From contig JAHQRK010000030.1 of NCBI GenBank assembly GCA_019828595.1, forward strand, positions 310,001 to 374,000: DNA of 64,000 bases, written 5' to 3'. The number at the start of each line of letters is the position of its first letter. Position 1 is the stretch's first letter. Source of the DNA: Aphanomyces cochlioides. Its lineage: Eukaryota; Oomycota; Saprolegniomycetes; Saprolegniales; Verrucalvaceae. The notes below the pieces were generated by a model that was not told the origin of the DNA, made no database searches, and worked only from the letters and a program-made list of their open reading frames with translations. This document shows positions 1 through 61,210 of this stretch, piece by piece. The translations under genes and the position numbers were made by a program.

Positions 1-228
1 TTTTTCACAGCCTGAATCGCCATGCAACATTTTCTTTCTGCCATGGTTCCTCCAAATTACCCCACACCCAAGTCTATTTCGGTTAAGCAACACTGGACGA
101 TTTTCCACAAGAACCTTCCAAGGTCACATTTCGCAACACATATTTATTATGCGACCTATGAAGCCAAAATCGAAAGTCTAGTTTGCGGCCCTTTTGGGCC
201 ATATTAATTCTTTAATATACTCAGTTAA
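1..228 (+). mobile_element. 3' end of a tRNA-Ala-targeted LINE copy (cut by window edge)
   Basis: The sequence matches the last 228 bp of the full-length element at 9555-18787 and ends with the same terminal bases (cagttaa) directly against tRNA-Ala position 28. A GGCCC-TTTT-GGGCC hairpin lies at 187-200. The 5' side is outside the window. Confidence 0.93.
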
Positions 229-1865: not shown

Positions 1866-2325
1866 GGGGATGTAGCTCAGATGGTAGAGCGCCCGCTTAG
1901 CATGCGGGATTTTTATCAAGACTTTTGTATACAAATTTTCAAGTCCTCCACAGTCAACCCGAAATTGCCTCGTATCTCGCCACCACCAACTCGGATCAAG
2001 ATGGTCATGAAAAGAAAGTTGCTTGTATGGCTCTTCTCTATACTCTTGAATTTTTTCACAGCCTGAATCGCCATGCAACATTTTCTTTCTGCCATGGTTC
2101 CTCCAAATTACCCCACACCCAAGTCTATTTCGGTTAAGCAACACTGGACGATTTTCCACAAGAACCTTCCAAGGTCACATTTCGCAACACATATTTATTA
2201 TGCGACCTATGAAGCCAAAATCGAAAGTCTAGTTTGCGGCCCTTTTGGGCCATATTAATTCTTTAATATACTCAGTTAACCGCTTAGCATGCGGGAGGTA
2301 CAGGGATCGATACCCTGCTTCTCCA
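1866..2325 (+). pseudogene. tRNA-Ala(AGC) split by a 370-bp LINE tail
   Basis: The 5' half (positions 1-44) is 1866-1909 and the 3' half (positions 28-73) is 2280-2325. Positions 28-44 are therefore present on both sides of the insertion as a 17-bp target duplication. Confidence 0.95.
1910..2279 (+). mobile_element. 5'-truncated LINE copy (370 bp)
   Basis: It matches the last 370 bp of the full-length LINE (from about 18418) with the identical 3' terminus. It holds no ORF of the element, only 3' UTR. 5' truncation is the usual outcome of incomplete target-primed reverse transcription. Confidence 0.95.
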
Positions 2326-6412: not shown

Positions 6413-8752
6413 GGGGATGTAGCTCAGATGGTAGAGCGCCCGCTTAGCATGCGGGACGACTTGACTTTATCCGTTCACCCAAAATGGCAAAACTATCGAC
6501 AACTCTGGCATTGCTCTGACGATCATTTCAGACATTCTAATGGTCATCAGGGTTGCTAGACATCCCAAGCAGACAAACGCAAGCGTTAGATTGCAAAAAA
6601 GTGCAGTGGTTCTCTCACAACAACACTTTGAAAATTGTTACGACGTCTCCCCCTGGGGGCGAAATCTCAAAATCGAGTGCACACTTTTTGTTCGGGAAAA
6701 TTGCGCCACGGTGCCTAAAAGATTCTCCCATGTCTCCTCCTCAAGATGTGCCAGTTTGCGAGTGCTCAAACCTCGCCAAACTCGCGAAACAAAATTCGAA
6801 AGGAAATTCGACCCGGTGACACCCATTTTGAACCGGTTTCAACCCGTCACCAAAAGTGAAATTTCTCTCGACCTACTGCGTGGATTTCTACGTTTAGTGG
6901 CTTGTTATCTCAGTTGAATCGAGCTCTATGCCGACACCAACTAGCACATATTGCAGATCTATGGTTCAAAACCACGAACCCATTTTGGACTGTCACCCAA
7001 ACCGGTGAAACACCAGGACAACTCGAACGCTTTCCCTACGGTCACCGAGTGACATCTAGGGGTCTAGTGGGTGGCTCCACCACTTATTACGACTAGCCAA
7101 AGCGTTAGAACGCCCTGAAACATCCTGGTTTGCTCGCAATCCTCAATCCAAAATGTCAACCGCCCCTATCCACCGGCTACAAAACCTTAAGTCGGCTACA
7201 GGTCGCAAATCATTTCCTATCGACCGGCTATGACTCTTTTCCATCCTATCATGGCTAGACGAGTGTTTTAAGCCATCAAGAGCGATGATTGAAGCCCTGG
7301 AACCTACTTGCCGTCGCCCCGACAACTTTTGGTGAAATGGCTAAAACTCATCGGAATGGCTCCTGAACGCAAATCAACTCCGATCGCCCAACTTAGAGTT
7401 GGAGAGGCTCGAGAATGTCCTCGCGATGGATTTGAGCTATCAAGCACCATGATAGCAGCACAGGAACCCAACTTCCGATTCCAAACCATTTTGAGCCGAT
7501 AAGGCTCCAAAACGACCATCGTAGCTCATTTCAGCTACACGACTCTATATGCACCGATTAATATGGTGCATCCACCGCTAGCCTCCATTGATGGAGGACA
7601 CCAAGTATGGCTATCTATCTCATAGCCGTTCGGAAGTTATGACTCCTTCAAATTTGGCCGCCGAGACGCCCGATTGGAAAAACCACTGGTTTTGGCTAGC
7701 GCTCTCCCGCTACACACTACCTATGGCGATTCTAATGGTGCGCTATCCTTCGTACGTATCGTCGCTACGATTCTGCCAAGTGGCTCCATGCACCGCGGCG
7801 CCGTTCGAAATCCAGCTCCGACGATGCTCGCGCTCGAGACCTATCCGCGCATGGCGCATGTCAAAATGGCACCTCCCAAATATTTTACCCTTTTTTATTA
7901 TTTTTGGGAGGTTTACCCCAAAAGCCCAACCCACAAGGGATTTTCCCTCTATCTCGCCACCTTCAACTCCGACGAAGACGCTCCTGAAATCAACTTTGCT
8001 TGTCATGGAACGACCGACCTCGTTGATTTTTTTGGCTGGTCAAATCGTCCAAGAACATTTTATTTTGGATGGTCTTTTCTCTCAAACCCAGCTTTTCCCA
8101 TGGTTCCAGCGATTTAATTCGGCCTCCTGAGGTCGAATTAAATTGGCCACGACCTTTTTGGATTTTTTGGGCTCCTACCTCTTGCCAATTTATTTTCCTT
8201 GGGCCTGATTTTACTCTGTTTCGACCCTTTTGTCAATTTTTGGCCTTCCTCTCCTGTCGATTTATTTATTCATGGATCGACCCCAACTCAAGCTTTTATT
8301 TACTTGGCCTTTTTCACTGCGTACCTCCACTTGGAATTTTTATCAAGACTTTTGTATACAAATTTTCAAGTCCTCCACAGTCAACCCGAAATTGCCTCGT
8401 ATCTCGCCACCACCAACTCGGATCAAGATGGTCATGAAAAGAAAGTTGCTTGTATGGCTCTTCTCTATACTCTTGAATTTTTTCACAGCCTGAATCGCCA
8501 TGCAACATTTTCTTTCTGCCATGGTTCCTCCAAATTACCCCACACCCAAGTCTATTTCGGTTAAGCAACACTGGACGATTTTCCACAAGAACCTTCCAAG
8601 GTCACATTTCGCAACACATATTTATTATGCGACCTATGAAGCCAAAATCGAAAGTCTAGTTTGCGGCCCTTTTGGGCCATATTAATTCTTTAATATACTC
8701 AGTTAACCGCTTAGCATGCGGGAGGTACAGGGATCGATACCCTGCTTCTCCA
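6413..8752 (+). pseudogene. tRNA-Ala(AGC) split by a 2250-bp LINE copy
   Basis: The 5' half is 6413-6456 (positions 1-44) and the 3' half is 8707-8752 (positions 28-73). The duplicated 17 bp are the same as at the other LINE insertions. Confidence 0.95.
6457..8706 (+). mobile_element. 5'-truncated LINE copy (2250 bp, 3' UTR only)
   Basis: It matches the full-length element from about 16535 to its end with scattered differences, for example near 6541-6545 and 7335-7352. At those sites it agrees with the copy at 27322-29492 and not with the full-length copy, so it did not come directly from that copy. It contains no ORF1 or ORF2 sequence. Open frames of up to 180 codons inside it shift between copies and look non-coding. 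Confidence 0.95.
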
Positions 8753-8825: not shown

Positions 8826-9634
8826 TCTTTTTAGCTTCTTTCTATTCAGGACACTACTCTTTCACGCGATCTCCTTTTCACCTCTGTAGGACACTTCTTT
8901 TCCAACATTATCTGTATTCAACTTGACAAGTATACACTGTCCACAATGGAAAATATAACAGTTAGACTTTGAACAGTATATTTCTTGGAATCACTTGGTC
9001 GATGTGCAATGAAATGGTTGAACCAGAATGTGTACAGCACTTTGAATGGTGTTTGTGGTCGCGTCACATGGATAAAGAAGGATAGAAAACATCTCTTTTG
9101 TTGTCAATCGCTTGACACTTTTTGGTGTGAACGGTTCGTGTCCCATCGGTCGAAATCGTTTTTGCTCATAACTTTTGCAATATTGCTCCGATTGACCTCA
9201 AACTACTTGCAAACTCTTGCTTTTGAAAAGCTCTATCGATTCACACCCTCAGATACCAAAAAAAGACGACCAGAAATCGACGTACTGTCAAAAAACGGGT
9301 TTGCAACAGCTTCATCCACACCAACGAGTTCTCCAACAAGCCGACAAGAAATCGACAGTCTCCACGGGACATTTTGGCATACAAGTATCCCGTAGACACG
9401 ACGAATGCCTGGTTGCAAAAGGGTCGTCACAATCTATCCTTGTACAGACAAGAACAAGAAAGTGGACGATTTGGCGGACTTGATGCACAGACACAAAAGA
9501 ACAGTAAAAAGGGGATGTAGCTCAGATGGTAGAGCGCCCGCTTAGCATGCGGGACTTTCGTTTTTGCTTTGTAGGTTAAACTACCACAGCCCCCCAACGG
9601 AAAATCTTGCTTTTTAGGTGCTTTCGACAACGTC

Positions 9635-12160
9635 ATGGCCTCTAGCGCGGAAAAAACCATCCTTTCGACGGTGTCTCGATTCGCTCAACGTGAATCGACG
9701 CCTGACCCTAGCCAAGCGACGCCCGGTCCGAGCCGAGAAGCCGCTGAAAAACCTCCTTCCTCTAGGAACAGCGCCGCTGCGTCCGACTCTCTTCGTAGGG
9801 AAAATGTTTCCAACCAAGATGGTGTTGACTTAGGTGGTGACACTGGTCCAAATATGGACAAAAAAAATGGACCCGATGATGCAGGAATGGGTATGGATAT
9901 TAATGGTTCCAACGAAAAACCTGCCTCTGACGCCAATGGTGGCAAATTACCCAAGGATTCTGACAAGCCTGGGGAGAATATTACCCATCCTGACGGCACC
10001 CCTCATGGACGAGTTTTACCTAATTCGAAAAATCCCTCCAAAGATGGGACAAACTCTCCTGCCAAACCCTCCAACCCCAAAAAACAAGCTTCGTCCAACA
10101 ACGAAGGCAAAAAAACCAACTCGAAGAAAAATAATGTATGGGAAGGAGCCCGCCATGTGAAAACCCAATTGGTTCGCAACACTGGTGGGCATCCCATTGA
10201 CGACTCTGAATTGGAAGAATTAATTCGACAAGCTCGAGAATTCCGCCAAAACCCTACTGCTATGGATGAATTCATTGAAGACATCTTGAAAACTCCATCC
10301 TCGAAGGCTTGCACTGTGGACATTCCTCTGGGAGAAGCTTTCCGTCAAGTCAAGGACTACCAAATCCGAGCGAATTTAATTACCCAAAACCCGGGTACGC
10401 TTTGGGAATCGAAATTCAAGGAAATTCTGTTCCACAAGAAAAACCCGACTACTCTCTCTTTGACGTTTTATGACGATGATCTATTGCGCAAAACTTGTGG
10501 AACCTCCCTTCGTCTGGGAAAACAAGAATTTACTGTGCCTGAATATTCTCCCCACTCGAAACTTTATTTTATTACTTTCAACAACCTGGTGGATCACGAT
10601 ATTCAAAAAGCGATTTTGAAAAAGTTGGAAGAGCTCACTCACTGCGTCATTGTTGGTTTTAACCCCAGTACTGACAATTTATTACGCTCGACCCAATTTC
10701 GAGTCCTTTTTGACTCCGAAACTCCTCCTTTGGCATTGGTACCAGATGATGGAGGCGAGCCTCTGAGAGAAATCGAGATCCAAAACCAAGTTTATGTTTT
10801 TCAACATAAAATTCGGTCCCTCAATCAAACGGTCCCTCCCAGCGTTCAAGCTAGACTGGAAAAAGCCAAACAAAAAGACGACGCTAAAAAGAATACAGAC
10901 CATGTCGAGGAAAACGCTACAGAGGAAAAAACTGATGCTCCCGAAAATCCATCGACAGAAAACCAACCACCCAACACCCCGAAGGAAAATACTGGCACAA
11001 CTGGAAACTCCGAATCCCCTAATGCCGATCCCAAGGAAAATCAAAATGGCAAGGAAAACTTTGTCGACCTGTCAAGCGATGTGGACATGGAACAAGAGGA
11101 GAAATCAAATATCGAAGAGGAAGAAATGGTAGCTCAACCCAAGAAGATATTAAATCCTCCACAATCACCCAAGGGCTCGAGCGAGAATAATATTATTCTC
11201 ACAGACAAACCCAATTTATCCCAGGACGAATTTAAACCAACTCGAGCCGGTTTAATTCAAGGTCCCCAATACAAAATATCAGCTACCTCGATTCCAACAC
11301 AAAATCGATTCGCTATCCTCAGCTCAGACGACTCTGACGTGACAACTTCAGGCACAACGGTTCCTCGATTCCATCTTGATATCGTTCCTACCGACACGCC
11401 CAAAAAACGTCCTGCTTCGTCCCCAAAATCAACGATACCCAAAAAAATTCCAGCCTCTACGAAACCAGCAGGAGCCAAAGTGAAGGCTCAAATCACAGAG
11501 CTGAAGAAAAAACTGAATGAATCTACCAACCCATTGGTATTTCATGATGAAACCCTCAACCAACCTGGCTTTATTGGAAATATCTATATGGACCCAAAAT
11601 CTCGCAAAATCGCATCCAATTTAATTGCCTCGAGAGGAATTATACGTTTAATGGCTGGAGAAAATCCCATGCAAGCTATTGATGAAGAACGATTTACCTC
11701 GTACTACCAAAAACAGCATGGCCATCCTCCTCCTGAAAATTACAGCCCCACAAATCTATTCCAAAGTTTGTGTCCAAATGACGAAGACTACCACATGAGA
11801 AGATCTCTAGCAGCAATCGATCTATTTCTGTCCAACAGAGCACCTGAAGCTTATACGAACGATGAGTATATTAATCTGTGCCTGAAAGACAAAGTCCACC
11901 GTTGGCCCAATTGCAATTTAATCACGGACGCCTCCTTGATTAAATTAATTTCCAGTCCCGCTGCTGGAAACCTGGTGCAACATCATAAAATTGAAGAAGA
12001 GTTGAGCCATATTGTGAAAGATCTGGCACTCCAAACAATTGACCCTACGAAGTGTTTTGACTCGGATACTGATGCCTTGTTAACTTTACTTCCGGACGAA
12101 AAGGCTCCTGAACTCGACTACAAAGAACTTGGCGATGGTGACAATGCAGACTCCAATTGA
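9635..12160 (+). CDS. LINE ORF1 protein (nucleic-acid-binding, gag-like), 841 aa
   Basis: The first ATG after the 80-bp leader opens this frame. Residues 1-170 are low-complexity (Ser, Pro, Asn, Lys, Gly). A globular segment at about 180-400 contains an RRM-like pattern: a strand around 271-280, then KLYFITFNN near 309-317, then FRVLFD. Residues about 400-620 are again low-complexity and charged. A second folded part at about 625-841 ends the protein. I see no CCHC knuckle. By position and composition it is the ORF1 of the element, expected to bind element RNA and help assemble the RNP; the RRM assignment is inference from the pattern alone. ORF2 lies 100 nt downstream in another frame, so the translation mechanism of ORF2 (reinitiation or other) is open. 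Confidence 0.85.
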   Translation: MASSAEKTILSTVSRFAQRESTPDPSQATPGPSREAAEKPPSSRNSAAASDSLRRENVSNQDGVDLGGDTGPNMDKKNGPDDAGMGMDINGSNEKPASDANGGKLPKDSDKPGENITHPDGTPHGRVLPNSKNPSKDGTNSPAKPSNPKKQASSNNEGKKTNSKKNNVWEGARHVKTQLVRNTGGHPIDDSELEELIRQAREFRQNPTAMDEFIEDILKTPSSKACTVDIPLGEAFRQVKDYQIRANLITQNPGTLWESKFKEILFHKKNPTTLSLTFYDDDLLRKTCGTSLRLGKQEFTVPEYSPHSKLYFITFNNLVDHDIQKAILKKLEELTHCVIVGFNPSTDNLLRSTQFRVLFDSETPPLALVPDDGGEPLREIEIQNQVYVFQHKIRSLNQTVPPSVQARLEKAKQKDDAKKNTDHVEENATEEKTDAPENPSTENQPPNTPKENTGTTGNSESPNADPKENQNGKENFVDLSSDVDMEQEEKSNIEEEEMVAQPKKILNPPQSPKGSSENNIILTDKPNLSQDEFKPTRAGLIQGPQYKISATSIPTQNRFAILSSDDSDVTTSGTTVPRFHLDIVPTDTPKKRPASSPKSTIPKKIPASTKPAGAKVKAQITELKKKLNESTNPLVFHDETLNQPGFIGNIYMDPKSRKIASNLIASRGIIRLMAGENPMQAIDEERFTSYYQKQHGHPPPENYSPTNLFQSLCPNDEDYHMRRSLAAIDLFLSNRAPEAYTNDEYINLCLKDKVHRWPNCNLITDASLIKLISSPAAGNLVQHHKIEEELSHIVKDLALQTIDPTKCFDSDTDALLTLLPDEKAPELDYKELGDGDNADSN

Positions 12161-12260
12161 CTCGCCAACACACAAAATCAATTAAAACCACAATCACCAC
12201 ACCCCGACCCAAACCAACACAACGACTTGAAGTCAAAAAATCAAAACCCAAATATTAATC

Positions 12261-15200
12261 ATGACCGTGACCACAATTAACGCGCTACCACAAGCCATTA
12301 TCGACTGGGATATTAGCTTGTTTTCTCTCAACACAAATGGTCTCTCCAACTCTTTCCACCACCTTCTCAAGAACTTTCTCCTCAAAAACTCTATCTCACT
12401 TATCCAAGAAACTCGACTGCCTTACCCCAGCGACCATGGCAAAATCAATTTCTACTGGAAAAAACATACCAACCAACAAGGCACTTTCTTCTACGAGGAG
12501 CCAATTTATTCCATCAGCAATACCTCTCATCCTACTGGAGGCCTTGCTACATTTATTCATCCTGACTGCCCTCTGGACAATTGCACCAATTTAAACCACT
12601 CTTGGGACAAACCTCTCCTCCGTGGTCGTTATTTACTTATATCGGCCACTCTGGACAATATCCCGGTTTTTATTCACAACATCTATGCTCCGTACGACTA
12701 TCACGACCGTGTGGATTTTTTTAATGATCTGCCTCGCGATTTTCCACCCGAAGCTTTTCATATTGTTGGTGGCGACTTTAACGTTATTTTCTCCCCAACA
12801 TTAGATTCATGCCGTCCTTCGACTCATGCGACTCATGGCTCATATGAACTCAACCTATGGCTACAAGATTTACACCTCGTTGACATTTTCCGTCAACAAA
12901 ATCCACTGAAACGTGCTTTCACAAGTCCAAAATTTGTCAATCGGCTTGACTATATTTTCATCTCGTCTGCTATGGCATCCCTACGTCATCTGAAATTTCG
13001 TCACCTGGAACTAATTCCTCATGCTGACCACACTCCCTGCAAATTATTGACCAAACGTCCAGCAGTATCAATGGGACCTGGTCCATGGAAAACACCACAA
13101 TGGGTTCTCAACAATGACAAGGCCAAATTCATTATCTCTCGTCAACTTGAAACCTTCCTTACCAAGACCCAATTAAACTCAAATGTTGGTCTACATTTCG
13201 ACACCATGATCACCAACATGCGAAATCAATTAAAATACCTACACGACGAGTTGGTCGAAAATCAACAAAGGCCTCTCAAGAAATTATCTATGGATTTGGC
13301 TTTATTGATTCGGGATTACCAAAACGCCCCATGTGCGTCCTTGATGGCACGTATCAAAACAATTCAAGCTGCCATACATGAATACCATGACAGGAAAAAA
13401 GTCCTACGGGAAGATACTGCTATGCAAACTCATCTCGAGAAAGCGGAAAGGTGTACCAAATTTCACCTGAAGCCACCTCGCACAATCCCTTTACAAAAAT
13501 CTCCCTTCAAGGCACTCAAAATGTCCAATGGAAATATTGCTTCTGATCAACAATCAATTTCCTCGACACTCCACGAGTTTTATTCTGACCTGTATGGCGA
13601 CCATGAGGCAGTTGACAAGGAAAGAATGGCCAAGTATTTAAAAACTCTGATATCTCGCCGACTCAATATCGACGACAAGAGATTTATTGGGGCTCCTCTC
13701 ACGGCAAACGAATTTTATTTTGCCATTAAACACTCCAAACGGAATTCAACTCCTGGGCCAAATTCACTGCCCTACGAAATTTTGAAAATGTTTCCCCATG
13801 AATGGTCCCTGGCTTTGGAAATGCTATACTATTACCAAATCAACTCTCACTCCAACTTGGCACCCTCCCAATTGACAAGTTTAATTGTACTGCTGTACAA
13901 AAAGGACGACAAACTACTCCCAAAAAATTACCGTCCCATCAGCTTGGTCAATATCGACGTGAAAATCCTCACAATGGTCCTTGCAGAACGAATGCAGAGA
14001 ATCATTCAGTCGATAGTCCACCCGGATCAAACAGGTTTTATTCGTGGTCGATCAATCCAAACCAATTTACTGCGCTTGGAAGACCTGAATCACTTTATGA
14101 AGTTTTATTCCTCCGAGTCTATTGTGGCCCTCTTGGACTTTGAAAAAGCCTTTGATAGGGTCAACCATTCCTATTTATTGGCAACCCTGAAGGAATTTAA
14201 TTTTCCACCGTCCTTTCTCAACATGGTCAAAGTGCTTTATTCAAATCGTCGTGGACGAATTATTGTCAATGGACATTTATCCAACCCATTTAAGATCCAA
14301 CGTGGTGTTTTACAAGGCGACCCATTATCACCTCTTTTATTTGTCTTGGCGCTAGAACCTATGTGTTTAGCCATACGCAAGAGAAAAGATTTGGGCATAC
14401 GAATTGGTCATCACACTCACACCGGGAGCTATTATGCAGACGACTCCCAATTGTACTCCAAAAATACATCGACGTTGCAACTCCAACTCGACATCGTCAA
14501 AAAATTCTGTGATATCTCTGGTTTCAAGTTAAATCTCTCCAAGACAGAATTATTAACCCATGCCAATTTACCTCCAGACCTGGCACCTTTGGCTATTACT
14601 GATGACAAACCTGCTAAATCGTTGGGCCTTTTAATTTCTCCCAACATCACAGCCACAACACGTTTAAATTCGCTATTGGAGAAATTGGTCTCAAGAACAC
14701 AACTATGGTCTTATCGAGCACGAACCCTACCCGGAAAAGTGACAATCCTAAGGTCAATTTGTTTTCCTGTGCTCTGGTATCAACTCCAATTTATTCCGAT
14801 CGACAAAGAATATGCCAAACTATTCGACAAGGTCGCCAAGCAATTTATTCACGGCGATACAATTGATCCATATTCGACTCAACGTTATTTGCATCAATTC
14901 AACTCGGACATTATTTTCCTTCCAAAAGCACAAGGTGGTCTCGGATTTAAATCGTCTACCCACTGGTGGTCAAAACTACACCGGGTCATGACCTTTAAAT
15001 GCTTCAAGCTACTCCTAGCACCACCTCACAACTCGTATGGTCAAACGAAATTGCCAGCATGGCTATCCATTGGAGAATATTTACTCTCCAGAGCCTTCAG
15101 TCCATGGGGAAATTTTTATGATCTCCTTTTCATGAGTCCACACTCTAGTATGTACAAAGCCATATCACACCAAGATAAGGTTCCACCTCTCTGGTCAGCA

Positions 15201-16346
15201 TTTACTCGACTATGGTTATCCTTATCTCCAACCCCACTTAAATTTCCCACAGTACAAGTCGATGGAAATTTTCCACTTTGGCACAATCAATTCTTACCCT
15301 TGGAGAAAACTGTCTTTGAACACTGCTATCCAAAGACTTATGATTATGCTGTATCACTGGCAAAATTAAATTTTACCCATGTTCGCCACCTACTCGATGA
15401 AAATGGCAATCTTATGGATCGGAAAATCCTGTTAGATTGGATTAAATCTCAATGCTCAAGACGCCATTTAGCCACTCCCGATCATAAATGGTGGTATGCT
15501 CTACACGGGAGACTTAAAGCTATTCTACCATCTCCACCCGAGGACACAGAAATTAATTTTCGTCAGCCTACACCTTATCGGCAAACGGCTACCGAAATTA
15601 CTTGGGCTGGAAATTTTAAAGACGGCTTTTTACCCTTTATTGATGCCACCTTGGATGATTTAACTCATGAATTTAAATCCAAATCAGCTCAGGAGGTTTT
15701 ACCCACAGCGCATTTATTGGTACCCTCGGATTTTTATGCCCACAAGGAAAATATTAAAGTGGTCGCATTCTACAGGCAGCCCAAATTTATTCTGCCAACG
15801 TATAGTGCTTTCATATATCGACTGCTTATACGAGCCTTACCTCTCCGATACAAATTCAAGTACTCGGACGATATCCCGAACACTTGTATTTTTTGTCATG
15901 AAGTGGAGACGTATAAACATTTCACCTTGGACTGTCCATATACTCGAGCATGTTGGAGTCCATTTAAATCCATGGCCAGATCCCTTAACTTTACTTGGCC
16001 AACTACCATGGAAAAAATATTCTTCTCTCCTATAGCACTCCAAGACAAAGACCTCCAAGCTGGATTTAATTTGCTGTGGCCAATTTTTTTATCTTGTATT
16101 TGGTATACAATATGGAAAACTCGGTGCGACCGGATTTACCGTCCAGATTTACCTAACAAAACACCTATGACGATATCCAGCTTAGCAGGACACATTATAA
16201 AGCGGCATCTGTACCAAGTCAATCGAGCCTCCTTGGACGACTCCACGAAGGCTTCCTTGACATCGGTGCTTCATAGTTTGCACCAGAATGAGTGGTTCTC
16301 TGCCCAAATCTTACCACAATCTCAAAACGAGACCTTGGAACCTTAA
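12261..16346 (+). CDS. LINE ORF2: APE endonuclease-reverse transcriptase, 1361 aa
   Basis: The N-terminal APE-type endonuclease has its key residues: N24/N26 (SLNTNG), E50 (QETR), Y142 (IYAP), D172/N174 (GGDFN), D230 (RLDYIF) and D256-H257 (HADHTP). The reverse transcriptase (about 480-760) shows NYRPISL, D626 in LLDFEKAFDRV, QGDPLSPLLF, YADD at 725-728 and LNLSKTE. A C-terminal CCHC finger is C1209-x2-C1212-x7-H1220-x4-C1225. No RNase H was seen. The expected role is to nick the tRNA-Ala gene and reverse-transcribe element RNA there. The endonuclease is the candidate determinant of the strict target choice. The start ATG fits directly before the endonuclease fold. The frame is fully open. 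Confidence 0.96.
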   Translation: MTVTTINALPQAIIDWDISLFSLNTNGLSNSFHHLLKNFLLKNSISLIQETRLPYPSDHGKINFYWKKHTNQQGTFFYEEPIYSISNTSHPTGGLATFIHPDCPLDNCTNLNHSWDKPLLRGRYLLISATLDNIPVFIHNIYAPYDYHDRVDFFNDLPRDFPPEAFHIVGGDFNVIFSPTLDSCRPSTHATHGSYELNLWLQDLHLVDIFRQQNPLKRAFTSPKFVNRLDYIFISSAMASLRHLKFRHLELIPHADHTPCKLLTKRPAVSMGPGPWKTPQWVLNNDKAKFIISRQLETFLTKTQLNSNVGLHFDTMITNMRNQLKYLHDELVENQQRPLKKLSMDLALLIRDYQNAPCASLMARIKTIQAAIHEYHDRKKVLREDTAMQTHLEKAERCTKFHLKPPRTIPLQKSPFKALKMSNGNIASDQQSISSTLHEFYSDLYGDHEAVDKERMAKYLKTLISRRLNIDDKRFIGAPLTANEFYFAIKHSKRNSTPGPNSLPYEILKMFPHEWSLALEMLYYYQINSHSNLAPSQLTSLIVLLYKKDDKLLPKNYRPISLVNIDVKILTMVLAERMQRIIQSIVHPDQTGFIRGRSIQTNLLRLEDLNHFMKFYSSESIVALLDFEKAFDRVNHSYLLATLKEFNFPPSFLNMVKVLYSNRRGRIIVNGHLSNPFKIQRGVLQGDPLSPLLFVLALEPMCLAIRKRKDLGIRIGHHTHTGSYYADDSQLYSKNTSTLQLQLDIVKKFCDISGFKLNLSKTELLTHANLPPDLAPLAITDDKPAKSLGLLISPNITATTRLNSLLEKLVSRTQLWSYRARTLPGKVTILRSICFPVLWYQLQFIPIDKEYAKLFDKVAKQFIHGDTIDPYSTQRYLHQFNSDIIFLPKAQGGLGFKSSTHWWSKLHRVMTFKCFKLLLAPPHNSYGQTKLPAWLSIGEYLLSRAFSPWGNFYDLLFMSPHSSMYKAISHQDKVPPLWSAFTRLWLSLSPTPLKFPTVQVDGNFPLWHNQFLPLEKTVFEHCYPKTYDYAVSLAKLNFTHVRHLLDENGNLMDRKILLDWIKSQCSRRHLATPDHKWWYALHGRLKAILPSPPEDTEINFRQPTPYRQTATEITWAGNFKDGFLPFIDATLDDLTHEFKSKSAQEVLPTAHLLVPSDFYAHKENIKVVAFYRQPKFILPTYSAFIYRLLIRALPLRYKFKYSDDIPNTCIFCHEVETYKHFTLDCPYTRACWSPFKSMARSLNFTWPTTMEKIFFSPIALQDKDLQAGFNLLWPIFLSCIWYTIWKTRCDRIYRPDLPNKTPMTISSLAGHIIKRHLYQVNRASLDDSTKASLTSVLHSLHQNEWFSAQILPQSQNETLEP

Positions 16347-18787
16347 AAGGCATGTTATATTGCAACCTTTGAAGAAATTCACCTAAGTCACCCAAACCAA
16401 TGGGAAAACTCAAAGTGGATTTTCTCGCGACCCACTTGGCCTTTTCATGCGTTTGATGGCTCGTTAGCCCCAGCTAACAGAGCTCTATGAACACACCAAG
16501 TAACTTTATCTCATGCCGAGTCGTTCACAAAATCGACTTGACTTTATCCGTTCACCCAAAATGGCAAAACTATCGACAACCCTGGCATTGCCCTGACGAT
16601 CATTTCAGACATTCTAATGGTCTTCAGGGTTGCTAGACATCCCAAGCAGACAAACGCAAGCGTTAGATTGCAAAAAAGTGCAGTGGTTCTCTCACAACAA
16701 CACTTTGAAAATTGTTACGACGTCTCCCCCTGGGGGCGAAATCTCAAAATCGAGTGCACACTTTTTGTTCGGGAAAATTGCGCCACGGTGCCTAAAAGAT
16801 TCTCCCATGTCTCCTCCTCAAGATGTGCCAGTTTGCGAGTGCTCAAACCTCGCCAAACTCGCGAAACAAAATTCGAAAGGAAATTCGACCCGGTGACACC
16901 CATTTTGAACCGGTTTCAACCCGTCACCAAAAGTGAAATTTCTCTCGACCTACTGCGTGGATTTCTACGTTTAGTGGCTTGTTATCTCAGTTGAATCGAG
17001 CTCTATGCCGACACCAACTAGCACATATTGCAGATCTATGGTTCAAAACCACGAACCCATTTTGGACTGTCACCCAAACCGGTGAAACACCAGGACAACT
17101 CGAACGCTTTCCCTACGGTCACCGAGTGACATCTAGGGGTCTAGTGGGTGGCTCCACCACTTATTACGACTAGCCAAAGCGTTAGAACGCCCTGAAACAT
17201 CCTGGTTTGCTCGCAATCCTCAATCCAAAATGTCAACCGCCCCTATCCACCGGCTACAAAACCTTAAGTCGGCTACAGGTCGCAAATCATTTCCTATCGA
17301 CCGGCTATGACTCCTTTCCATCCTATCATGGCTAGACGAGTGTTTTAAGCCATCAAGAGCGATGATTGAAGCCCTGGAACCTACTTGCCGTCGCCCCGAC
17401 AACTTTTGGTGAAATAGCTAAAACACATCGGAATGGCTCCTGAACGCAAATCAACTCCGATCGCCCAACTTAGAGTTGGAGAGGCTCGAGAATGTCCTCG
17501 CGATGGATTTGAGCTATCAAGCACCATGATAGCAGCACAGGAACCCAACTTCCGATTCCAAACCATTTTGAGCCGATAAGGCTCCAAAACGACCATCGTA
17601 GCTCATTTCAGCTACACGACTCTATATGCACCGATTAATATGGTGCATCCACCGCTAGCCTCCATTGATGGAGGACACCAAGTATGGCTATCTATCTCAT
17701 AGCCGTTCGGAAGTTATGACTCCTTCAAATTTGGCCGCCGAGACGCCCGATTGGAAAAAACACTGGTTTTGGCTAGCGCTCTCCCGCTACACACTACCTA
17801 TGGCGATTCTAATGGTGCGCTATCCTTCGTACGTATCGTCGCTACGATTCTGCCAAGTGGCTCCATGCACCGCGGCGCCGTTCGAAATCCAGCTCCGACG
17901 ATGCTCGCGCTCGAGACCTATCCGCGCATGGCGCATGTCAAAATGGCTCCTCCCAAATATTTTACCCTTTTTTATTATTTTTGGGAGGTTTACCCCAAAA
18001 GCCCAACCCACAAGGGATATTTTCCCTCTATCTCGCCACCATCAACTCCGATGAAGACGCTCCTGAAATCAACTTTGCTTGTCATGGAACGACCGACCTC
18101 GTTTGATTTTTTTGGCTGGTCAAATCGTCCAAGAACATTTTATTTTGGATGGTCTTTTCTCTCAAACCCAGCTTTTCCCATGGTTACAGCGATTTAATTC
18201 GGCCTCCTGAGGTCGAATTAAATTGGCCACGACCTTTTTGGATTTTTTGGGCTCCTACCTCTTGCCAATTTATTTTCCTTGGGCCTGATTTTACTCTGTT
18301 TCGACCCTTTTGTCAATTTTTGGCCTTCCTCTCCTGTCGATTTATTTATTCATGGATCGACCCCAACTCAAGCTTTTATTTACTTGGCCTTTTTCACTGC
18401 GTACCTCCACTTGGAATTTTTATCAAGACTTTTGTATACAAATTTTCAAGTCCTCCACAGTCAACCCGAAATTGCCTCGTATCTCGCCACCACCAACTCG
18501 GATCAAGATGGTCATGAAAAGAAAGTTGCTTGTATGGCTCTTCTCTATACTGTTGAATTTTTTCACAGCCTGAATCGCCATGCAACATTTTCTTTCTGCC
18601 ATGGTTCCTCCAAATTACCCCACACCCCAAGTCTATTTCGGTTAAGCAACACTGGACGATTTTCCACAAGAACCTTCCAAGGTCACATTTCGCAACACAT
18701 ATTTATTATGCGACCTATGAAGCCAAAATCGAAAGTCTAGTTTGCGGCCCTTTTGGGCCATATTAATTCTTTAATATACTCAGTTAA
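16347..18787 (+). other. LINE 3' UTR (2.44 kb) with terminal hairpin
   Basis: Long and without conserved ORF. Its end is kept in all four truncated or partial copies. A perfect GGCCC-TTTT-GGGCC hairpin lies at 18746-18759, 28 nt before the 3' terminus, and is present in every LINE copy. The terminal taatatactcagttaa resembles the SINE terminus. By analogy with other LINEs the 3' end is probably what the RT recognises. Confidence 0.8.
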
Positions 18788-18834
18788 CCGCTTAGCATGC
18801 GGGAGGTACAGGGATCGATACCCTGCTTCTCCAG

Positions 18835-18906
18835 GCGTCTGTAGTATAGTGGTCAGTACTTCACGTTGTGGCCGTGACATCCCGGGTTCGACTCCCGGCA
18901 GGCGCA
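18835..18906 (+). tRNA. tRNA-His(GTG)
   Basis: Same sequence as 1108-1179; it follows the LINE-split tRNA-Ala. Confidence 0.95.
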
Positions 18907-21258: not shown

Positions 21259-21703
21259 GGGGATGTAGCTCAGATGGTAGAGCGCCCGCTTAGCATGCGG
21301 GTAGGGGGGAAATTGGCTCAGTGGTAGAGCACACGCTTCGTAAGCGAGAGGTCACCGGTTCGATCCCGGGCTAGGACGAGGGATTTGCAACCCCTCCACC
21401 CCCCTGTCCGAAAGCACGGTATTTAATGGGATGTATGTGATCGGGAAACTTAAGTGCGCCTCGAACTTACAAGAGAAGGATTGTCCGGAAGCGGTTACCG
21501 GAATGAAAGTGTCAGTTTAATGTGGCCGTTCTGTAAAAACGTGTCGAATCGCTGTACTACCGAAAAGGTAGAACTATCAAGACAAAGCCGTTAGACCTGG
21601 TCCAGCTGAGTTAAAGTAGTTCATATCCACTATAACCTAGGTAATATACTCAATAAACCGCTTAGCATGCGGGAGGTACAGGGATCGATACCCTGCTTCT
21701 CCA
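21259..21703 (+). pseudogene. tRNA-Ala(AGC) split by SINE copy 1
   Basis: The 5' half is 21259-21301 (positions 1-43) and the 3' half is 21658-21703 (positions 28-73). The duplication is 16 bp, one base (A44) shorter than at the LINE insertions. Confidence 0.95.
21302..21657 (+). mobile_element. tRNA-Ala-targeted SINE, copy 1 (356 bp)
   Basis: The head (about 21307-21378) resembles tRNA-Thr: D arm GCTC/GAGC, loop TTCGTAA (anticodon CGT) and T-loop TTCGATC. It has an A-box-like TGGCTCAGTGG (21314-21324) and a B box GGTTCGATCC (about 21357-21366). The acceptor strands do not pair, so it is not a working tRNA gene. An unrelated body of about 260 bp follows. The last 17 nt, ending taatatactcaataaa, match the LINE terminus at 14 positions. 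There is no poly(A) tail and no T4 run. The insertion site is the same tRNA-Ala position as the LINE. Together this indicates a Pol III SINE moved by the LINE machinery. Confidence 0.88.
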
Positions 21704-22461: not shown

Positions 22462-22906
22462 GGGGATGTAGCTCAGATGGTAGAGCGCCCGCTTAGCATG
22501 CGGGTAGGGGGGAAATTGGCTCAGTGGTAGAGCACACGCTTCGTAAGCGAGAGGTCACCGGTTCGATCCCGGGCTAGGACGAGGGATTTGCAACCCCTCC
22601 ACCCCCCTGTCCGAAAGCACGGTATTTAATGGGATGTATGTGATCGGGAAACTTAAGTGCGCCTCGAACTTACAAGAGAAGGATTGTCCGGAAGCGGTTA
22701 CCGGAATGAAAGTGTCAGTTTAATGTGGCCGTTCTGTAAAAACGTGTCGAATCGCTGTACTACCGAAAAGGTAGAACTATCAAGACAAAGCCGTTAGACC
22801 TGGTCCAGCTGAGTTAAAGTAGTTCATATCCACTATAACCTAGGTAATATACTCAATAAACCGCTTAGCATGCGGGAGGTACAGGGATCGATACCCTGCT
22901 TCTCCA
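22462..22906 (+). pseudogene. tRNA-Ala(AGC) split by SINE copy 2
   Basis: The 5' half is 22462-22504 and the 3' half is 22861-22906, with a 16-bp duplication of positions 28-43. Confidence 0.95.
22505..22860 (+). mobile_element. tRNA-Ala-targeted SINE, copy 2 (356 bp)
   Basis: Same sequence and same junctions as the copy at 21302-21657. Confidence 0.88.
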
Positions 22907-23665: not shown

Positions 23666-24110
23666 GGGGATGTAGCTCAGATGGTAGAGCGCCCGCTTAG
23701 CATGCGGGTAGGGGGGAAATTGGCTCAGTGGTAGAGCACACGCTTCGTAAGCGAGAGGTCACCGGTTCGATCCCGGGCTAGGACGAGGGATTTGCAACCC
23801 CTCCACCCCCCTGTCCGAAAGCACGGTATTTAATGGGATGTATGTGATCGGGAAACTTAAGTGCGCCTCGAACTTACAAGAGAAGGATTGTCCGGAAGCG
23901 GTTACCGGAATGAAAGTGTCAGTTTAATGTGGCCGTTCTGTAAAAACGTGTCGAATCGCTGTACTACCGAAAAGGTAGAACTATCAAGACAAAGCCGTTA
24001 GACCTGGTCCAGCTGAGTTAAAGTAGTTCATATCCACTATAACCTAGGTAATATACTCAATAAACCGCTTAGCATGCGGGAGGTACAGGGATCGATACCC
24101 TGCTTCTCCA
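23666..24110 (+). pseudogene. tRNA-Ala(AGC) split by SINE copy 3
   Basis: The 5' half is 23666-23708 and the 3' half is 24065-24110. Confidence 0.95.
23709..24064 (+). mobile_element. tRNA-Ala-targeted SINE, copy 3 (356 bp)
   Basis: Same sequence and junctions as 21302-21657. Confidence 0.88.
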
Positions 24111-24869: not shown

Positions 24870-25314
24870 GGGGATGTAGCTCAGATGGTAGAGCGCCCGC
24901 TTAGCATGCGGGTAGGGGGGAAATTGGCTCAGTGGTAGAGCACACGCTTCGTAAGCGAGAGGTCACCGGTTCGATCCCGGGCTAGGACGAGGGATTTGCA
25001 ACCCCTCCACCCCCCTGTCCGAAAGCACGGTATTTAATGGGATGTATGTGATCGGGAAACTTAAGTGCGCCTCGAACTTACAAGAGAAGGATTGTCCGGA
25101 AGCGGTTACCGGAATGAAAGTGTCAGTTTAATGTGGCCGTTCTGTAAAAACGTGTCGAATCGCTGTACTACCGAAAAGGTAGAACTATCAAGACAAAGCC
25201 GTTAGACCTGGTCCAGCTGAGTTAAAGTAGTTCATATCCACTATAACCTAGGTAATATACTCAATAAACCGCTTAGCATGCGGGAGGTACAGGGATCGAT
25301 ACCCTGCTTCTCCA
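24870..25314 (+). pseudogene. tRNA-Ala(AGC) split by SINE copy 4
   Basis: The 5' half is 24870-24912 and the 3' half is 25269-25314. Confidence 0.95.
24913..25268 (+). mobile_element. tRNA-Ala-targeted SINE, copy 4 (356 bp)
   Basis: Same sequence and junctions as 21302-21657. Confidence 0.88.
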
Positions 25315-26073: not shown

Positions 26074-26518
26074 GGGGATGTAGCTCAGATGGTAGAGCGC
26101 CCGCTTAGCATGCGGGTAGGGGGGAAATTGGCTCAGTGGTAGAGCACACGCTTCGTAAGCGAGAGGTCACCGGTTCGATCCCGGGCTAGGACGAGGGATT
26201 TGCAACCCCTCCACCCCCCTGTCCGAAAGCACGGTATTTAATGGGATGTATGTGATCGGGAAACTTAAGTGCGCCTCGAACTTACAAGAGAAGGATTGTC
26301 CGGAAGCGGTTACCGGAATGAAAGTGTCAGTTTAATGTGGCCGTTCTGTAAAAACGTGTCGAATCGCTGTACTACCGAAAAGGTAGAACTATCAAGACAA
26401 AGCCGTTAGACCTGGTCCAGCTGAGTTAAAGTAGTTCATATCCACTATAACCTAGGTAATATACTCAATAAACCGCTTAGCATGCGGGAGGTACAGGGAT
26501 CGATACCCTGCTTCTCCA
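26074..26518 (+). pseudogene. tRNA-Ala(AGC) split by SINE copy 5
   Basis: The 5' half is 26074-26116 and the 3' half is 26473-26518. Confidence 0.95.
26117..26472 (+). mobile_element. tRNA-Ala-targeted SINE, copy 5 (356 bp)
   Basis: Same sequence and junctions as 21302-21657. Confidence 0.88.
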
Positions 26519-27277: not shown

Positions 27278-29538
27278 GGGGATGTAGCTCAGATGGTAGA
27301 GCGCCCGCTTAGCATGCGGGATCTAATGGTCATCAGGGTTGCTAGACATCCCAAGCAGACAAACGCAAGCGTTAGATTGCAAAAAAGTGCAGTGGTTCTC
27401 TCACAACAACACTTTGAAAATTGTTACGACGTCTCCCCCTGGGGGCGAAATCTCAAAATCGAGTGCACACTTTTTGTTCGGGAAAATTGCGCCACGGTGC
27501 CTAAAAGATTCTCCCATGTCTCCTCCTCAAGATGTGCCAGTTTGCGAGTGCTCAAACCTCGCCAAACTCGCGAAACAAAATTCGAAAGGAAATTCGACCC
27601 GGTGACACCCATTTTGAACCGGTTTCAACCCGTCACCAAAAGTGAAATTTCTCTCGACCTACTGCGTGGATTTCTACGTTTAGTGGCTTGTTATCTCAGT
27701 TGAATCGAGCTCTATGCCGACACCAACTAGCACATATTGCAGATCTATGGTTCAAAACCACGAACCCATTTTGGACTGTCACCCAAACCGGTGAAACACC
27801 AGGACAACTCGAACGCTTTCCCTACGGTCACCGAGTGACATCTAGGGGTCTAGTGGGTGGCTCCACCACTTATTACGACTAGCCAAAGCGTTAGAACGCC
27901 CTGAAACATCCTGGTTTGCTCGCAATCCTCAATCCAAAATGTCAACCGCCCCTATCCACCGGCTACAAAACCTTAAGTCGGCTACAGGTCGCAAATCATT
28001 TCCTATCGACCGGCTATGACTCTTTTCCATCCTATCATGGCTAGACGAGTGTTTTAAGCCATCAAGAGCGATGATTGAAGCCCTGGAACCTACTTGCCGT
28101 CGCCCCGACAACTTTTGGTGAAATGGCTAAAACTCATCGGAATGGCTCCTGAACGCAAATCAACTCCGATCGCCCAACTTAGAGTTGGAGAGGCTCGAGA
28201 ATGTCCTCGCGATGGATTTGAGCTATCAAGCACCATGATAGCAGCACAGGAACCCAACTTCCGATTCCAAACCATTTTGAGCCGATAAGGCTCCAAAACG
28301 ACCATCGTAGCTCATTTCAGCTACACGACTCTATATGCACCGATTAATATGGTGCATCCACCGCTAGCCTCCATTGATGGAGGACACCAAGTATGGCTAT
28401 CTATCTCATAGCCGTTCGGAAGTTATGACTCCTTCAAATTTGGCCGCCGAGACGCCCGATTGGAAAAACCACTGGTTTTGGCTAGCGCTCTCCCGCTACA
28501 CACTACCTATGGCGATTCTAATGGTGCGCTATCCTTCGTACGTATCGTCGCTACGATTCTGCCAAGTGGCTCCATGCACCGCGGCGCCGTTCGAAATCCA
28601 GCTCCGACGATGCTCGCGCTCGAGACCTATCCGCGCATGGCGCATGTCAAAATGGCACCTCCCAAATATTTTACCCTTTTTTATTATTTTTGGGAGGTTT
28701 ACCCCAAAAGCCCAACCCACAAGGGATTTTCCCTCTATCTCGCCACCTTCAACTCCGACGAAGACGCTCCTGAAATCAACTTTGCTTGTCATGGAACGAC
28801 CGACCTCGTTGATTTTTTTGGCTGGTCAAATCGTCCAAGAACATTTTATTTTGGATGGTCTTTTCTCTCAAACCCAGCTTTTCCCATGGTTCCAGCGATT
28901 TAATTCGGCCTCCTGAGGTCGAATTAAATTGGCCACGACCTTTTTGGATTTTTTGGGCTCCTACCTCTTGCCAATTTATTTTCCTTGGGCCTGATTTTAC
29001 TCTGTTTCGACCCTTTTGTCAATTTTTGGCCTTCCTCTCCTGTCGATTTATTTATTCATGGATCGACCCCAACTCAAGCTTTTATTTACTTGGCCTTTTT
29101 CACTGCGTACCTCCACTTGGAATTTTTATCAAGACTTTTGTATACAAATTTTCAAGTCCTCCACAGTCAACCCGAAATTGCCTCGTATCTCGCCACCACC
29201 AACTCGGATCAAGATGGTCATGAAAAGAAAGTTGCTTGTATGGCTCTTCTCTATACTCTTGAATTTTTTCACAGCCTGAATCGCCATGCAACATTTTCTT
29301 TCTGCCATGGTTCCTCCAAATTACCCCACACCCAAGTCTATTTCGGTTAAGCAACACTGGACGATTTTCCACAAGAACCTTCCAAGGTCACATTTCGCAA
29401 CACATATTTATTATGCGACCTATGAAGCCAAAATCGAAAGTCTAGTTTGCGGCCCTTTTGGGCCATATTAATTCTTTAATATACTCAGTTAACCGCTTAG
29501 CATGCGGGAGGTACAGGGATCGATACCCTGCTTCTCCA
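27278..29538 (+). pseudogene. tRNA-Ala(AGC) split by a 2171-bp LINE copy
   Basis: The 5' half is 27278-27321 (positions 1-44) and the 3' half is 29493-29538 (positions 28-73). Confidence 0.95.
27322..29492 (+). mobile_element. 5'-truncated LINE copy (2171 bp, 3' UTR only)
   Basis: It begins 79 bp further into the element than the copy at 6457 and has the same 3' terminus. It agrees with the 6457 copy where both differ from the full-length element (for example near 28118-28140), so these two share a source other than the full-length copy in this window. Confidence 0.95.
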
Positions 29539-32793: not shown

Positions 32794-33238
32794 GGGGATG
32801 TAGCTCAGATGGTAGAGCGCCCGCTTAGCATGCGGGTAGGGGGGAAATTGGCTCAGTGGTAGAGCACACGCTTCGTAAGCGAGAGGTCACCGGTTCGATC
32901 CCGGGCTAGGACGAGGGATTTGCAACCCCTCCACCCCCCTGTCCGAAAGCACGGTATTTAATGGGATGTATGTGATCGGGAAACTTAAGTGCGCCTCGAA
33001 CTTACAAGAGAAGGATTGTCCGGAAGCGGTTACCGGAATGAAAGTGTCAGTTTAATGTGGCCGTTCTGTAAAAACGTGTCGAATCGCTGTACTACCGAAA
33101 AGGTAGAACTATCAAGACAAAGCCGTTAGACCTGGTCCAGCTGAGTTAAAGTAGTTCATATCCACTATAACCTAGGTAATATACTCAATAAACCGCTTAG
33201 CATGCGGGAGGTACAGGGATCGATACCCTGCTTCTCCA
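32794..33238 (+). pseudogene. tRNA-Ala(AGC) split by SINE copy 6
   Basis: The 5' half is 32794-32836 and the 3' half is 33193-33238. Confidence 0.95.
32837..33192 (+). mobile_element. tRNA-Ala-targeted SINE, copy 6 (356 bp)
   Basis: Same sequence and junctions as 21302-21657, but separated from the other five copies by a LINE-bearing unit and three uninterrupted units. Confidence 0.88.
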
Positions 33239-42322: not shown

Positions 42323-44077
42323 CAAGCCCCACGTGCGAGCTTTGTTGCTACAATTCTTCATAACTTATACCAACCATCCATCTAACTAAGGATATCAATA
42401 TAAATTGTGTGTTAATACCTTTTTAGTCGAGTTGATTCCAGTCTAGCATGGATAACGAGATGAAAGTTCCAAACTCCAGCTTGAATATACACAAGACCAA
42501 CAATTTCTCCAGAGATGTCGAGCCGAATGCAACAGAACGCTAGGTAGGATTGCAATTTGTCTGCGTAAGAACTACACAATCCATGAAAAAAATTCGCAAC
42601 GAGAATAACTGAATATGCATTTCACATACCAAATATGACAAAATGACGCACTTGTCAATGACAAAATCCATGCCATTGCCAACGAGTCGATGGCTGGTTT
42701 ACCCAAGTATTTATCCATAAATTGATGGCCACTGTCGAGAATGGTCGAGGGGAAATCTGAGACTTTTTTGTCTTCGTAAAGATTGGCGAACGATTCGATT
42801 ACCCTAAAGATCGATCCCCTGTAAGTTTTTTCACGATCAACGACCAGGATGTGAAAGAGATGAACTAGGAGGAGGATCTTTCTCGACCTATCTTTCATCT
42901 CAACGCGTCGTGAATTGTATGAGCCAACCATTGCTATTAATAGCTAGACGATGGGACAGGATCTACAGTATGTCGGTCGTGAGTAATTCCAAAGTTTCCA
43001 TAAAATGCACCTTTCCGTGAATCTTGGAGGTGTACACTACTGTAGGCAAACCTCAACAAAGGGGAAAGATCTTCGTCCAGTCGATCGTTTCTCTACATGG
43101 CAGCTCGACCCATTTTGGCTCTTCTTGCAGTTTCTCGAGACAGGAACAAAGATCTCGGAATAGCAGCACGAGATCTTTGGCGCATTTTTTTTGTTGAGCT
43201 CGTCAGACAGCCACATGAAGCATTAATTCCAAAGTGAAATGGATCCAACGCCGAGGTGATATTTTTGTCTTCAGGACCTGCCCAGTCTCTGCTATGTGAC
43301 TTTTATGGACCTATTGTCACTGGCCTGGCCAACACAGTGGCCACTCAAACATACCGCTGAACATTTGATTCCACCCAACCATTGAAATTTGAATTGCGTC
43401 GAGGATATGCAAGCAACCTTGACTTTAACACGTCTTCGACGACACTGCAGTATTTAAGTCAGACTGATTTAGAAAACGGTTCAATGGGACCTTACATGAC
43501 AAATGGTTTGGTTGTTCCTTTTGTGAGGAAGTCGACTGCAGAGATGAAGCCAAGCCCACTTGAATTTATTCCTAAATATGGCAGAGCGTTAGTTCAGAGT
43601 GAAATCTCCAAGAGTGATCACTTACTTAACCGAGGGGGGATTGAAGGGGGAACCAAACAGGGGATGATGTGATCGAGGGGGGAGTTGGGGATCGCTGGGG
43701 GAACCAAGGGGTGAAGTCAAGGACGGCTTGTATGAACTTACTCGGTCTCTAGTGCAAGCGTGCTCGCCATTTTTGATGAAGACATGGACTGCATCGAAAT
43801 TGACTTTTGGCCATGTTGACTTCCCTCCCCCACCTTTGGGTGAGGGATACGCTTGGAATTGTGTCGTGGAGTGTCGACGATTTTCCCTTCCTGTGGGTGC
43901 GATGGAATGTTGGAAGAGGCCATGCTGGCTTTACTCATCGAATGCTTTGCCCTTTGACATGTATTTTGACGTGCAGTGAAAAATCGATCCATGTTATACA
44001 GCGAAGGGAAATCGGTCATTGATCTCGAAAGAATAAAACGAAAGTCTATTCAGCCAACATATAAAATCAAAACATAC
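42323..44077. other. intergenic, one weak minus-strand ORF
   Basis: A minus-strand frame at 42572-42931 (119 codons, ATG start) is the only longer candidate. It has no recognised domain and could be an exon of a decayed gene. Otherwise nothing was seen. Confidence 0.4.
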
Positions 44078-54297: not shown

Positions 54298-54502
54298 CCT
54301 TGCGACTGCATTGTGTCAGACGCATATTTGCGATCCAAAACGCCAATATTCTCCATGGGAAGCAGCTTCTGCATGGTTTGAGCCTTGTCGGCGCCGTGTC
54401 TGACGGGAAATAGCCTCCGACGGATGCTCTTGCTTCAAGTTGATATTTGTCATTTTCCACCTATCTCGGCTAACAATCGCCAAGCTTAACTACAGGTCCG
54501 CG

Positions 54503-60718: not shown

Positions 60719-61210
60719 TTACGCTTGATCGTCGTCCTTCGTCTCCTCCTCTTCGATCGGGTGGAGCTCTTCCTGGACCATCATCGCAAGCCGATCAAAC
60801 CCGAGGCGCACTCGCTCAAATTCGTAAATCAGCTCAGACGGCGGAATGTTGACGAGCGCTTCCCATATCCACGGTCCACCCCGGTAAAATTGAACTTCGT
60901 ACTCCTTCGTGCCTTCTGTATATCGCACGTTTCGCACAGCTACAACTTGCGGGCGCGAGCCCAGTACATCGTCGCGGTCGGGTCGTCCACCAAGAAACGA
61001 GTCGTCGGGTAAAGCTAGCTCTTCGTCAAAGTCAATTTCCGACACGTTTTGCAACAATTCCACCGGCCGCTCTAAGTAAACCCGTCGCGGCTTCAACCGA
61101 AAGTCGTGTACAACCGCGTGGAACCGATAGACCTTCCCTGTATGACGCACGTGGGACTCCAATTCGCTTGAATAGTCGTTGGGACGCGACAACACGCGGA
61201 AAGGGCCATC
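60719..61210 (-). pseudogene. Ty3/gypsy pol C-terminus after frameshift, with chromodomain-like tail
   Basis: This frame continues the integrase C-terminus (GPFRVLSRPND, then HTGKVYRFHAVVHDFRLKPR). It ends with a chromodomain-like stretch (RPQVVAVRNVRY, EYEVQF, IWEALVNIPPSELI) and an acidic tail. It lacks its own start and belongs to the pol frame at 61205-64000, from which it is separated by a small indel. Confidence 0.8.

Follow-up and report, generated by a model that had tools for sequence, protein, structure and literature searches.

What determines the point at which a long interspersed nuclear element (LINE) enters a genome, when its copies in a tandem tRNA array lie inside one gene and leave the gene beside it uncut? 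This question is raised by a stretch of 64,000 nucleotides of the Aphanomyces cochlioides genome (76.2 Mb, 94 contigs), C24:310001-374000, which is referred to as the window. The first 33 kb of the window are an array of an 832-bp unit carrying a tRNA-Ala(AGC) gene with tRNA-His(GTG) located 1 bp downstream. The LINE interrupts four and a short interspersed nuclear element (SINE) interrupts six, making 10 of the 20 tRNA-Ala genes that start within the window, and all 21 tRNA-His copies were called intact by ARAGORN. From these and the genome-wide insertions described below, it is very probable that an L1-like LINE and a SINE sharing its tail insert into the first part of genes transcribed by RNA polymerase III (Pol III), mostly into the anticodon arms of tRNA genes. 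This confidence covers the targeting itself, not the first recognition step. The LINE insertions and their surroundings are located in the window as follows.

9555..18787, + strand: full-length LINE, 9,233 bp, in tRNA-Ala(AGC)
9511..9554, + strand: tRNA-Ala(AGC) nt 1-44, 5' part of the interrupted gene
9538..9554, + strand: target-site duplication, 5' copy
18788..18804, + strand: target-site duplication, 3' copy
18805..18833, + strand: tRNA-Ala nt 45-73, 3' part of the interrupted gene
18835..18906, + strand: intact tRNA-His(GTG), one of 21, none interrupted, a natural internal control
1..228, + strand: 3' end of a LINE copy, the remainder lying beyond the window edge
1910..2279, + strand: 5'-truncated LINE copy, begins at LINE nt 8863
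6457..8706, + strand: 5'-truncated LINE copy, begins at LINE nt 6980
27322..29492, + strand: 5'-truncated LINE copy, begins at LINE nt 7059

Five LINE 3' ends fall within the window (228, 2279, 8706, 18787, and 29492); each abuts tRNA-Ala nt 28 and is followed by CCGCTTAGCATGCGGGA. The four visible 5' junctions (1910, 6457, 9555, and 27322) come after nt 44 and are preceded by an identical 17 bp, the duplicated anticodon arm. These junctions were confirmed as the original prediction had given them. The 17-mer was found 31 times with ≤3 mismatches, compared with 0.09 expected by chance. The three shorter copies with both junctions are 99.3-99.5% identical to the 9,233-bp LINE, and their different starting points bear out the claim that they arose in separate events. 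In two full-length copies outside the window (L010 and L019), an A not supplied by the target stands ahead of CTTTCG. Thus, the LINE probably starts with ACTTTCG, and the duplication at full-length copies may be 16 bp.

To describe the targets in the whole genome, the flanks of the 21-nt LINE tail were assigned. The tail has 127 exact matches, and the 100 listed ends discussed here are the first by contig; a match beside L069 is missing from the list, which is incomplete even inside its own range. The 25 ends on C24 were assigned by coordinates abutting tRNA-Ala(AGC) matches and the other 75 by sequence. In total, 82 of the 100 listed ends lie in the anticodon arms of tRNA genes, comprising six tRNA types and one Thr-like gene. 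The counts are 35 for Ala-AGC (including L027, a decayed site whose joined flanks are not called tRNA-Ala and which was counted by sequence), 21 for Val-GAC (including L093, assigned from the 3' flank only), 13 for Ala-CGC, 6 for Ala-TGC, 5 for Asp-GTC, 1 for Phe-GAA, and 1 for the Thr-like gene (L035, known by its 3' half only). Two further ends are at tRNA-like sequences (L012 and L034), and 16 are elsewhere. The last group represents 14 distinct targets, with one shared by L009 and L010 and another by L064 and L065. Contigs past the end of the listing contributed another four Ala-AGC sites, tRNA-Thr(AGT) (one copy with both flanks, another with the same 3' flank), a 5S rRNA gene (on C49 and on C59), and one further site elsewhere.

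When the flanks were joined without the insert, ARAGORN called nine kinds of tRNA gene, namely, Asp, Ala-TGC, Val, Phe, Ala-CGC, Gly-TCC, Arg-ACG, Ala-AGC, and Thr-AGT. For this joining, 31 loci were given; L023, L083, and L093, which have no 5' copy of the target start, were dropped, and L009, L094, and L095 were not part of it. Among 10 open copies of the second LINE reading frame whose flanks were taken at predicted positions, L096 and L110 yielded no 3' end, and L107, L109, and L113 yielded no 5' start, L109 reading N. The genome-wide ends therefore uphold the proposal that the LINE inserts inside tRNA genes at the anticodon arm. The proposed specificity for tRNA-Ala(AGC) was not upheld, as only 35 of the 100 listed ends are in Ala-AGC and 54 in any tRNA-Ala, the rest being in Val, Asp, Phe, Thr-like, tRNA-like, and non-tRNA sequences. 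The expectation that most copies would lie in tRNA-Ala holds narrowly (46 of the 100 listed ends are outside it), and the expectation of one constant junction fails, because targets start at nt 28, 30, 31, or 32.

The six identical 356-bp SINE insertions at the tRNA-Ala site of the window, which had not been counted in the original prediction, occupy the same position as the LINE.

21302..21657, + strand: SINE in the same tRNA-Ala site as the LINE, with tRNA-like head and LINE-like tail
22505..22860, + strand: identical SINE copy (array amplification)
23709..24064, + strand: identical SINE copy (array amplification)
24913..25268, + strand: identical SINE copy (array amplification)
26117..26472, + strand: identical SINE copy (array amplification)
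32837..33192, + strand: identical SINE copy

The SINE has A-box- and B-box-like motifs, a tRNA-like head, and the tail TAATATACTCAATAAA, which is identical to the LINE tail at 14 of 16 positions. With such a head, box-like motifs, and a tail in common with a partner LINE, it is a tRNA-derived SINE. The head matches RF00005 at 31.5 bits (cut-off 29) in L082 and L084, the two of the 13 SINE loci that were scanned, and Rfam returned nothing beyond these two heads for 20 loci, mostly non-tRNA or unclear sites. The tail occurs 134 times in the genome. The 13 loci fetched (14 tails) were mostly picked for lying outside the two big arrays, and 11 of the 14 tails are followed by tRNA or tRNA-like sequence, namely, Val (3), Gly-TCC (3), the tRNA-like L084 and L089, Ala-CGC (1), Ala-AGC (1), and Arg-ACG (1). 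Gly-TCC and Arg-ACG are thereby added to the LINE targets. The other three tails are followed by a degenerate tRNA-like sequence akin to the L012 target (L082), a second SINE (L094), and a sequence elsewhere (L083). At L094 (C15:1336160-1336799), the SINE is directly followed by CC and then by the second, 5'-shortened SINE. The targets of L012 and L082, and those of L084 and L089, form near-identical tRNA-like pairs on different contigs; they were not called by ARAGORN and may be further tRNA-derived repeats.

Such a pattern could in principle arise if insertion were random and copies survived only in redundant tRNA arrays, where unequal crossing-over spread them. Amplification within arrays is indeed seen, as five of the six identical SINEs of the window are in consecutive 1.2-kb units, and on C22 six LINE copies recur every 1,555 bp. 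However, all 11 LINE and SINE tails found in the window have the tRNA-Ala site directly after them, with none in spacer or tRNA-His, and the truncations differ. Moreover, many unlinked tRNA genes are struck within the same few nucleotides, and tRNA is present at 14 of 31 distinct sites (chance p = 2.6e-24). In this test, 5,429 loose tRNA candidates were taken as genes (0.5% of the genome), and the sites were counted by hand as 14 tRNA, 2 tRNA-like, and 15 other, with 5S left out. Random insertion with survival in arrays is already contradicted by these results and retains hardly any probability.

The reading frames and 3' region of the full-length LINE are located as follows.

9635..12160, + strand: open reading frame (ORF) 1, 841 aa
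12261..16346, + strand: ORF2, 1361 aa, with apurinic/apyrimidinic endonuclease (APE)-type endonuclease, reverse transcriptase, and C-terminal zinc-binding stretch
12261..13097, + strand: ORF2 stretch folded as the endonuclease domain, 279 aa
16347..18787, + strand: LINE 3' untranslated region
18767..18787, + strand: LINE 3' tail TTCTTTAATATACTCAGTTAA, last 16 nt compared with the SINE tail

A Pfam scan of ORF1 found no domain; the protein is 99% identical to an A. cochlioides protein and 90% to an A. euteiches protein. In ORF2, residues 547-789 are a reverse transcriptase (Pfam RVT_1, E 7.3e-39), and residues 1177-1232 match zf-RVT just under the Pfam cut-off. The endonuclease was not reported in ORF2 by Pfam alone. 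In 20 aligned rows of the endonuclease stretch, Y142, D172, N174, D230, D256, and H257 are invariant and N24 and E50 nearly so; these are the catalytic residues of APE-type enzymes. The model of this stretch has a pLDDT of 89.7, and its nearest solved structures are the LINE-1 endonuclease. By sequence, the best solved relative of ORF2 is LINE-1 ORF2p (E 2.9e-66), the best R2 match having E 1.7e-26. Judged from alignment and model, ORF2 is an L1-like protein, as had been predicted, with an N-terminal APE-type endonuclease. Reverse transcriptase and endonuclease in one ORF, 5' truncations, a common 3' end, and target-site duplications identify a non-long terminal repeat (non-LTR) element.

The closest ORF2 proteins are one from ENA at 93% identity and seven at 37-45%, four of them from A. 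euteiches. The best ORF2 relative in A. euteiches (P0004) is only 43-45% identical, yet the ORF1 relative (P0062) is 90% identical. In a FastTree reverse transcriptase tree (58 rows, 19 open forks, fragment P0010 left out by hand), ORF2 is placed with A. euteiches elements, among rows that include no references named L1, Tx1, or R1. No ORF2 relatives were found in viral and genome contig collections. Within the genome, the 34 ORF2 copies that were scored, a lower bound, all have an open reading frame and a rounded identity of 100%, and thus the LINE family is young.

Numbering backward from the anticodon places the first top-strand nucleotide of the target at nt 28 in the Ala, Thr, and Arg genes and at one Asp site, nt 30 in Val and Gly, nt 31 at the second Asp site, and nt 32 in Phe (31 counting a shared A). 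Among the 100 listed ends, the target opens with CC at 99, Phe being the sole exception, and it does so at 16 of 16 distinct non-tRNA sites (14 from the listing, one unlisted LINE, and one SINE), compared with a background of 5.0%. In tRNA-His, CC occurs at nt 38, 47, 48, 60, and 61 only; as none comes before nt 38, the escape of this gene fits the rule. Exact duplications generally span 15-18 bp, several non-tRNA sites included, and reach 20 bp at L084 and L089. Only 7-11 exact bases are duplicated at L020, L025, L026, and L027, and none at L009 and L023.

One alternative is that the endonuclease reads DNA alone, recognizing a CCGCTT-like motif common in anticodon arms without Pol III factors. 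The Ala, Thr, Arg, and first Asp sites open with CCGC, as do 5 of the 16 non-tRNA sites (p = 0.0007), with CCGCTTCG at L010 and L014. However, the Val (CCTTGACG), Gly (CCCTTCC), second Asp (CCTGTCA), and Phe (one C) sites share little beyond CC, and the same is true of the other 11 non-tRNA sites. Moreover, CCGCTT is not rare, occurring 11 times in 30.6 kb of host sequence (both strands), yet most listed insertions are in tRNA genes. Pure DNA recognition is therefore a possible but rather unlikely explanation. Recognition of the anticodon-stem dyad, or of a cruciform, in the DNA agrees with the strong hairpins into which most tRNA sites fold; however, folding is weak at the Phe site and absent in the 5S stretch, and no clear hairpin enrichment was observed at non-tRNA sites (8 sites, p = 0.055; 16 sites, p = 0.20). 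This explanation is accordingly considered improbable.

A different selector is suggested by L064, where CCGCTTAA separates the LINE tail from a second copy of the tail downstream. LINE RNA reading into the 3' half of a tRNA gene could pair with nicked, similar tRNA genes, and the CCGC enrichment at non-tRNA sites agrees with such annealing. As the main selector, RNA-guided annealing is nevertheless unlikely, because an Ala read-through has little similarity to the Val, Phe, and Gly sites, so that each of these would need its own source copy, and the copied flank was seen in one case only. L064 itself and L065 (C23:520688-520838 and C23:529934-530084) are two LINEs placed head to tail with the same non-tRNA target sequence; the pair has extra short tail copies, and CCGCTTAA stands after one of the two LINEs.

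Tentatively, we favor a first step in which the Pol III transcription complex or the promoter of the tRNA gene leads the protein to the gene, where it then uses a CC close by. Recognition through Pol III fits because tRNA and 5S genes are both targeted, as by TRE5-A. In the 5S rRNA gene, the target begins at about nt 35 (~34 nt into the gene, by hand count on the joined flanks). Several observations weigh against the targeting as a whole. The 5S site is assigned from the flanks of two copies and from a match below threshold (Rfam 34.8 bits, cut-off 38), as the first part of the gene lies on the other side of the insert. The Phe target has one C only, and no tRNA is present at the sites of 16 of the 100 listed ends. 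A B-box-like motif (≤2 mismatches) was found downstream of 0 of 16 non-tRNA sites (background 7.9%), and Pol III recognition thus leaves these sites unexplained; the over-representation of CCGC among them favors a sequence or annealing preference. Furthermore, 27 of the 127 ends are unlisted, the listed 100 being ordered by contig and not a random sample, and many array copies share flanks and may have been amplified rather than inserted separately.

The insertion sites and their orientation, the duplications, the CC rule, the tail and sites common to LINE and SINE, and the open reading frames were all observed directly. In line with the junctions and established LINE biology, target-primed reverse transcription is proposed. 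The APE-type endonuclease would nick the bottom strand such that the top strand of the target opens with CC; in tRNA genes this point lies 27-31 nt from the start, on the 5' side of the anticodon arm, and in 5S rRNA it lies about 34 nt from the start. The freed ...GG-3' end would then prime RNA copying at the LINE tail. The top strand would be cut mostly 15-18 nt further on, and consequently the anticodon arm would be duplicated. Read-through RNA with flanking tRNA sequence may aid annealing; the CCGC enrichment and the CCGCTTAA between two LINE tails in L064 point to such help. A broader version, which we consider rather doubtful, is that the LINE and SINE use the transcription complex to gauge how far they are from the beginning of any Pol III gene, cut at a suitable CC, and hit nearly every tRNA type with CC there, with read-through RNA aiding annealing at the next tRNA gene.

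Among known systems, TRE5-A, a non-LTR element of Dictyostelium, is similar in its tRNA and 5S targets; its description reports nearly all tRNA genes and the 5S gene as targets, with Pol III complexes proposed (PMC5391098). However, TRE5-A inserts about 47 bp upstream, whereas here the cut is inside the anticodon arm, with a SINE at the same site. The fixed distance outside tRNA genes that marks TRE elements is thus not found here, the insertions being inside the gene. For tRNA genes, the original prediction named only the TRE elements, which insert near these genes and not inside them, and is thus incomplete: in PMC4640811, NeSL-1_TV is placed in tRNA-Pro, LIN15_SM in tRNA-Arg, and LIN25_SM in tRNA-Glu genes. 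As described there, these are NeSL-related elements with a restriction-like endonuclease and one tRNA type each, whereas the present LINE is of APE type and enters many types; an APE domain is present, and a restriction-like endonuclease motif was not looked for separately. The same source describes Utopia as oomycete target-specific non-LTR elements with a U2 small nuclear RNA target, and the target genes of Phytophthora Utopia as lying in arrays, more of them broken than intact (PMC4640811).

Utopia differs from the present LINE in its restriction-like endonuclease and U2 target. Dada DNA transposons also enter tRNA genes around the anticodon, but they have a DNA transposase and 6-7 bp duplications, unlike the reverse transcriptase protein and the mostly 15-18 bp duplications seen here. 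LINE-1 ORF2p is similar in the order of endonuclease and reverse transcriptase and has the nearest endonuclease fold. LINE-1 is not known to have a fixed gene target and carries a poly-A tail, whereas the present LINE has a fixed 3' end without poly-A and a gene target. Searches of the PubMed Central literature revealed no description of an APE-type LINE that enters tRNA genes of many types, nor of a SINE accompanying one at such sites, Repbase and subscription papers being outside the search. Accordingly, LINEs in tRNA genes are already known, and the APE-type, multi-tRNA, SINE-partnered case appears new within the literature searched.

Other features of the window were also noted. A hybrid tRNA-Ala composed of the target 5' part and the first LINE bases (9510-9595) was called by ARAGORN; shuffled LINE starts gave such calls in 37 of 2000 cases and random host sequence in 36 of 2000 (~2%), and the candidate was rejected as too weak for a functional claim. 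RNase H and integrase domains of a Ty3/gypsy-like element lie at 61093-63990 (minus strand), and protein-kinase-like reading frames are present at 54440-55246 (plus strand) and 44050-45744 (minus strand).

If the targeting is true, an APE-type, L1-like LINE lives inside many tRNA types, together with a SINE that has the same tail and target. This would provide a natural system for studying how a LINE endonuclease gains target choice, with the uncut tRNA-His of each repeat as a control, and would indicate that a selfish element can live within a multi-copy gene family. The tRNA genes of Phytophthora infestans number about eight thousand, most of them arranged in tandem arrays (PMC9584435). As half of the tRNA-Ala genes in the array stretch of A. 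cochlioides are lost to insertions, the finding would bear on why oomycetes keep large tRNA arrays.

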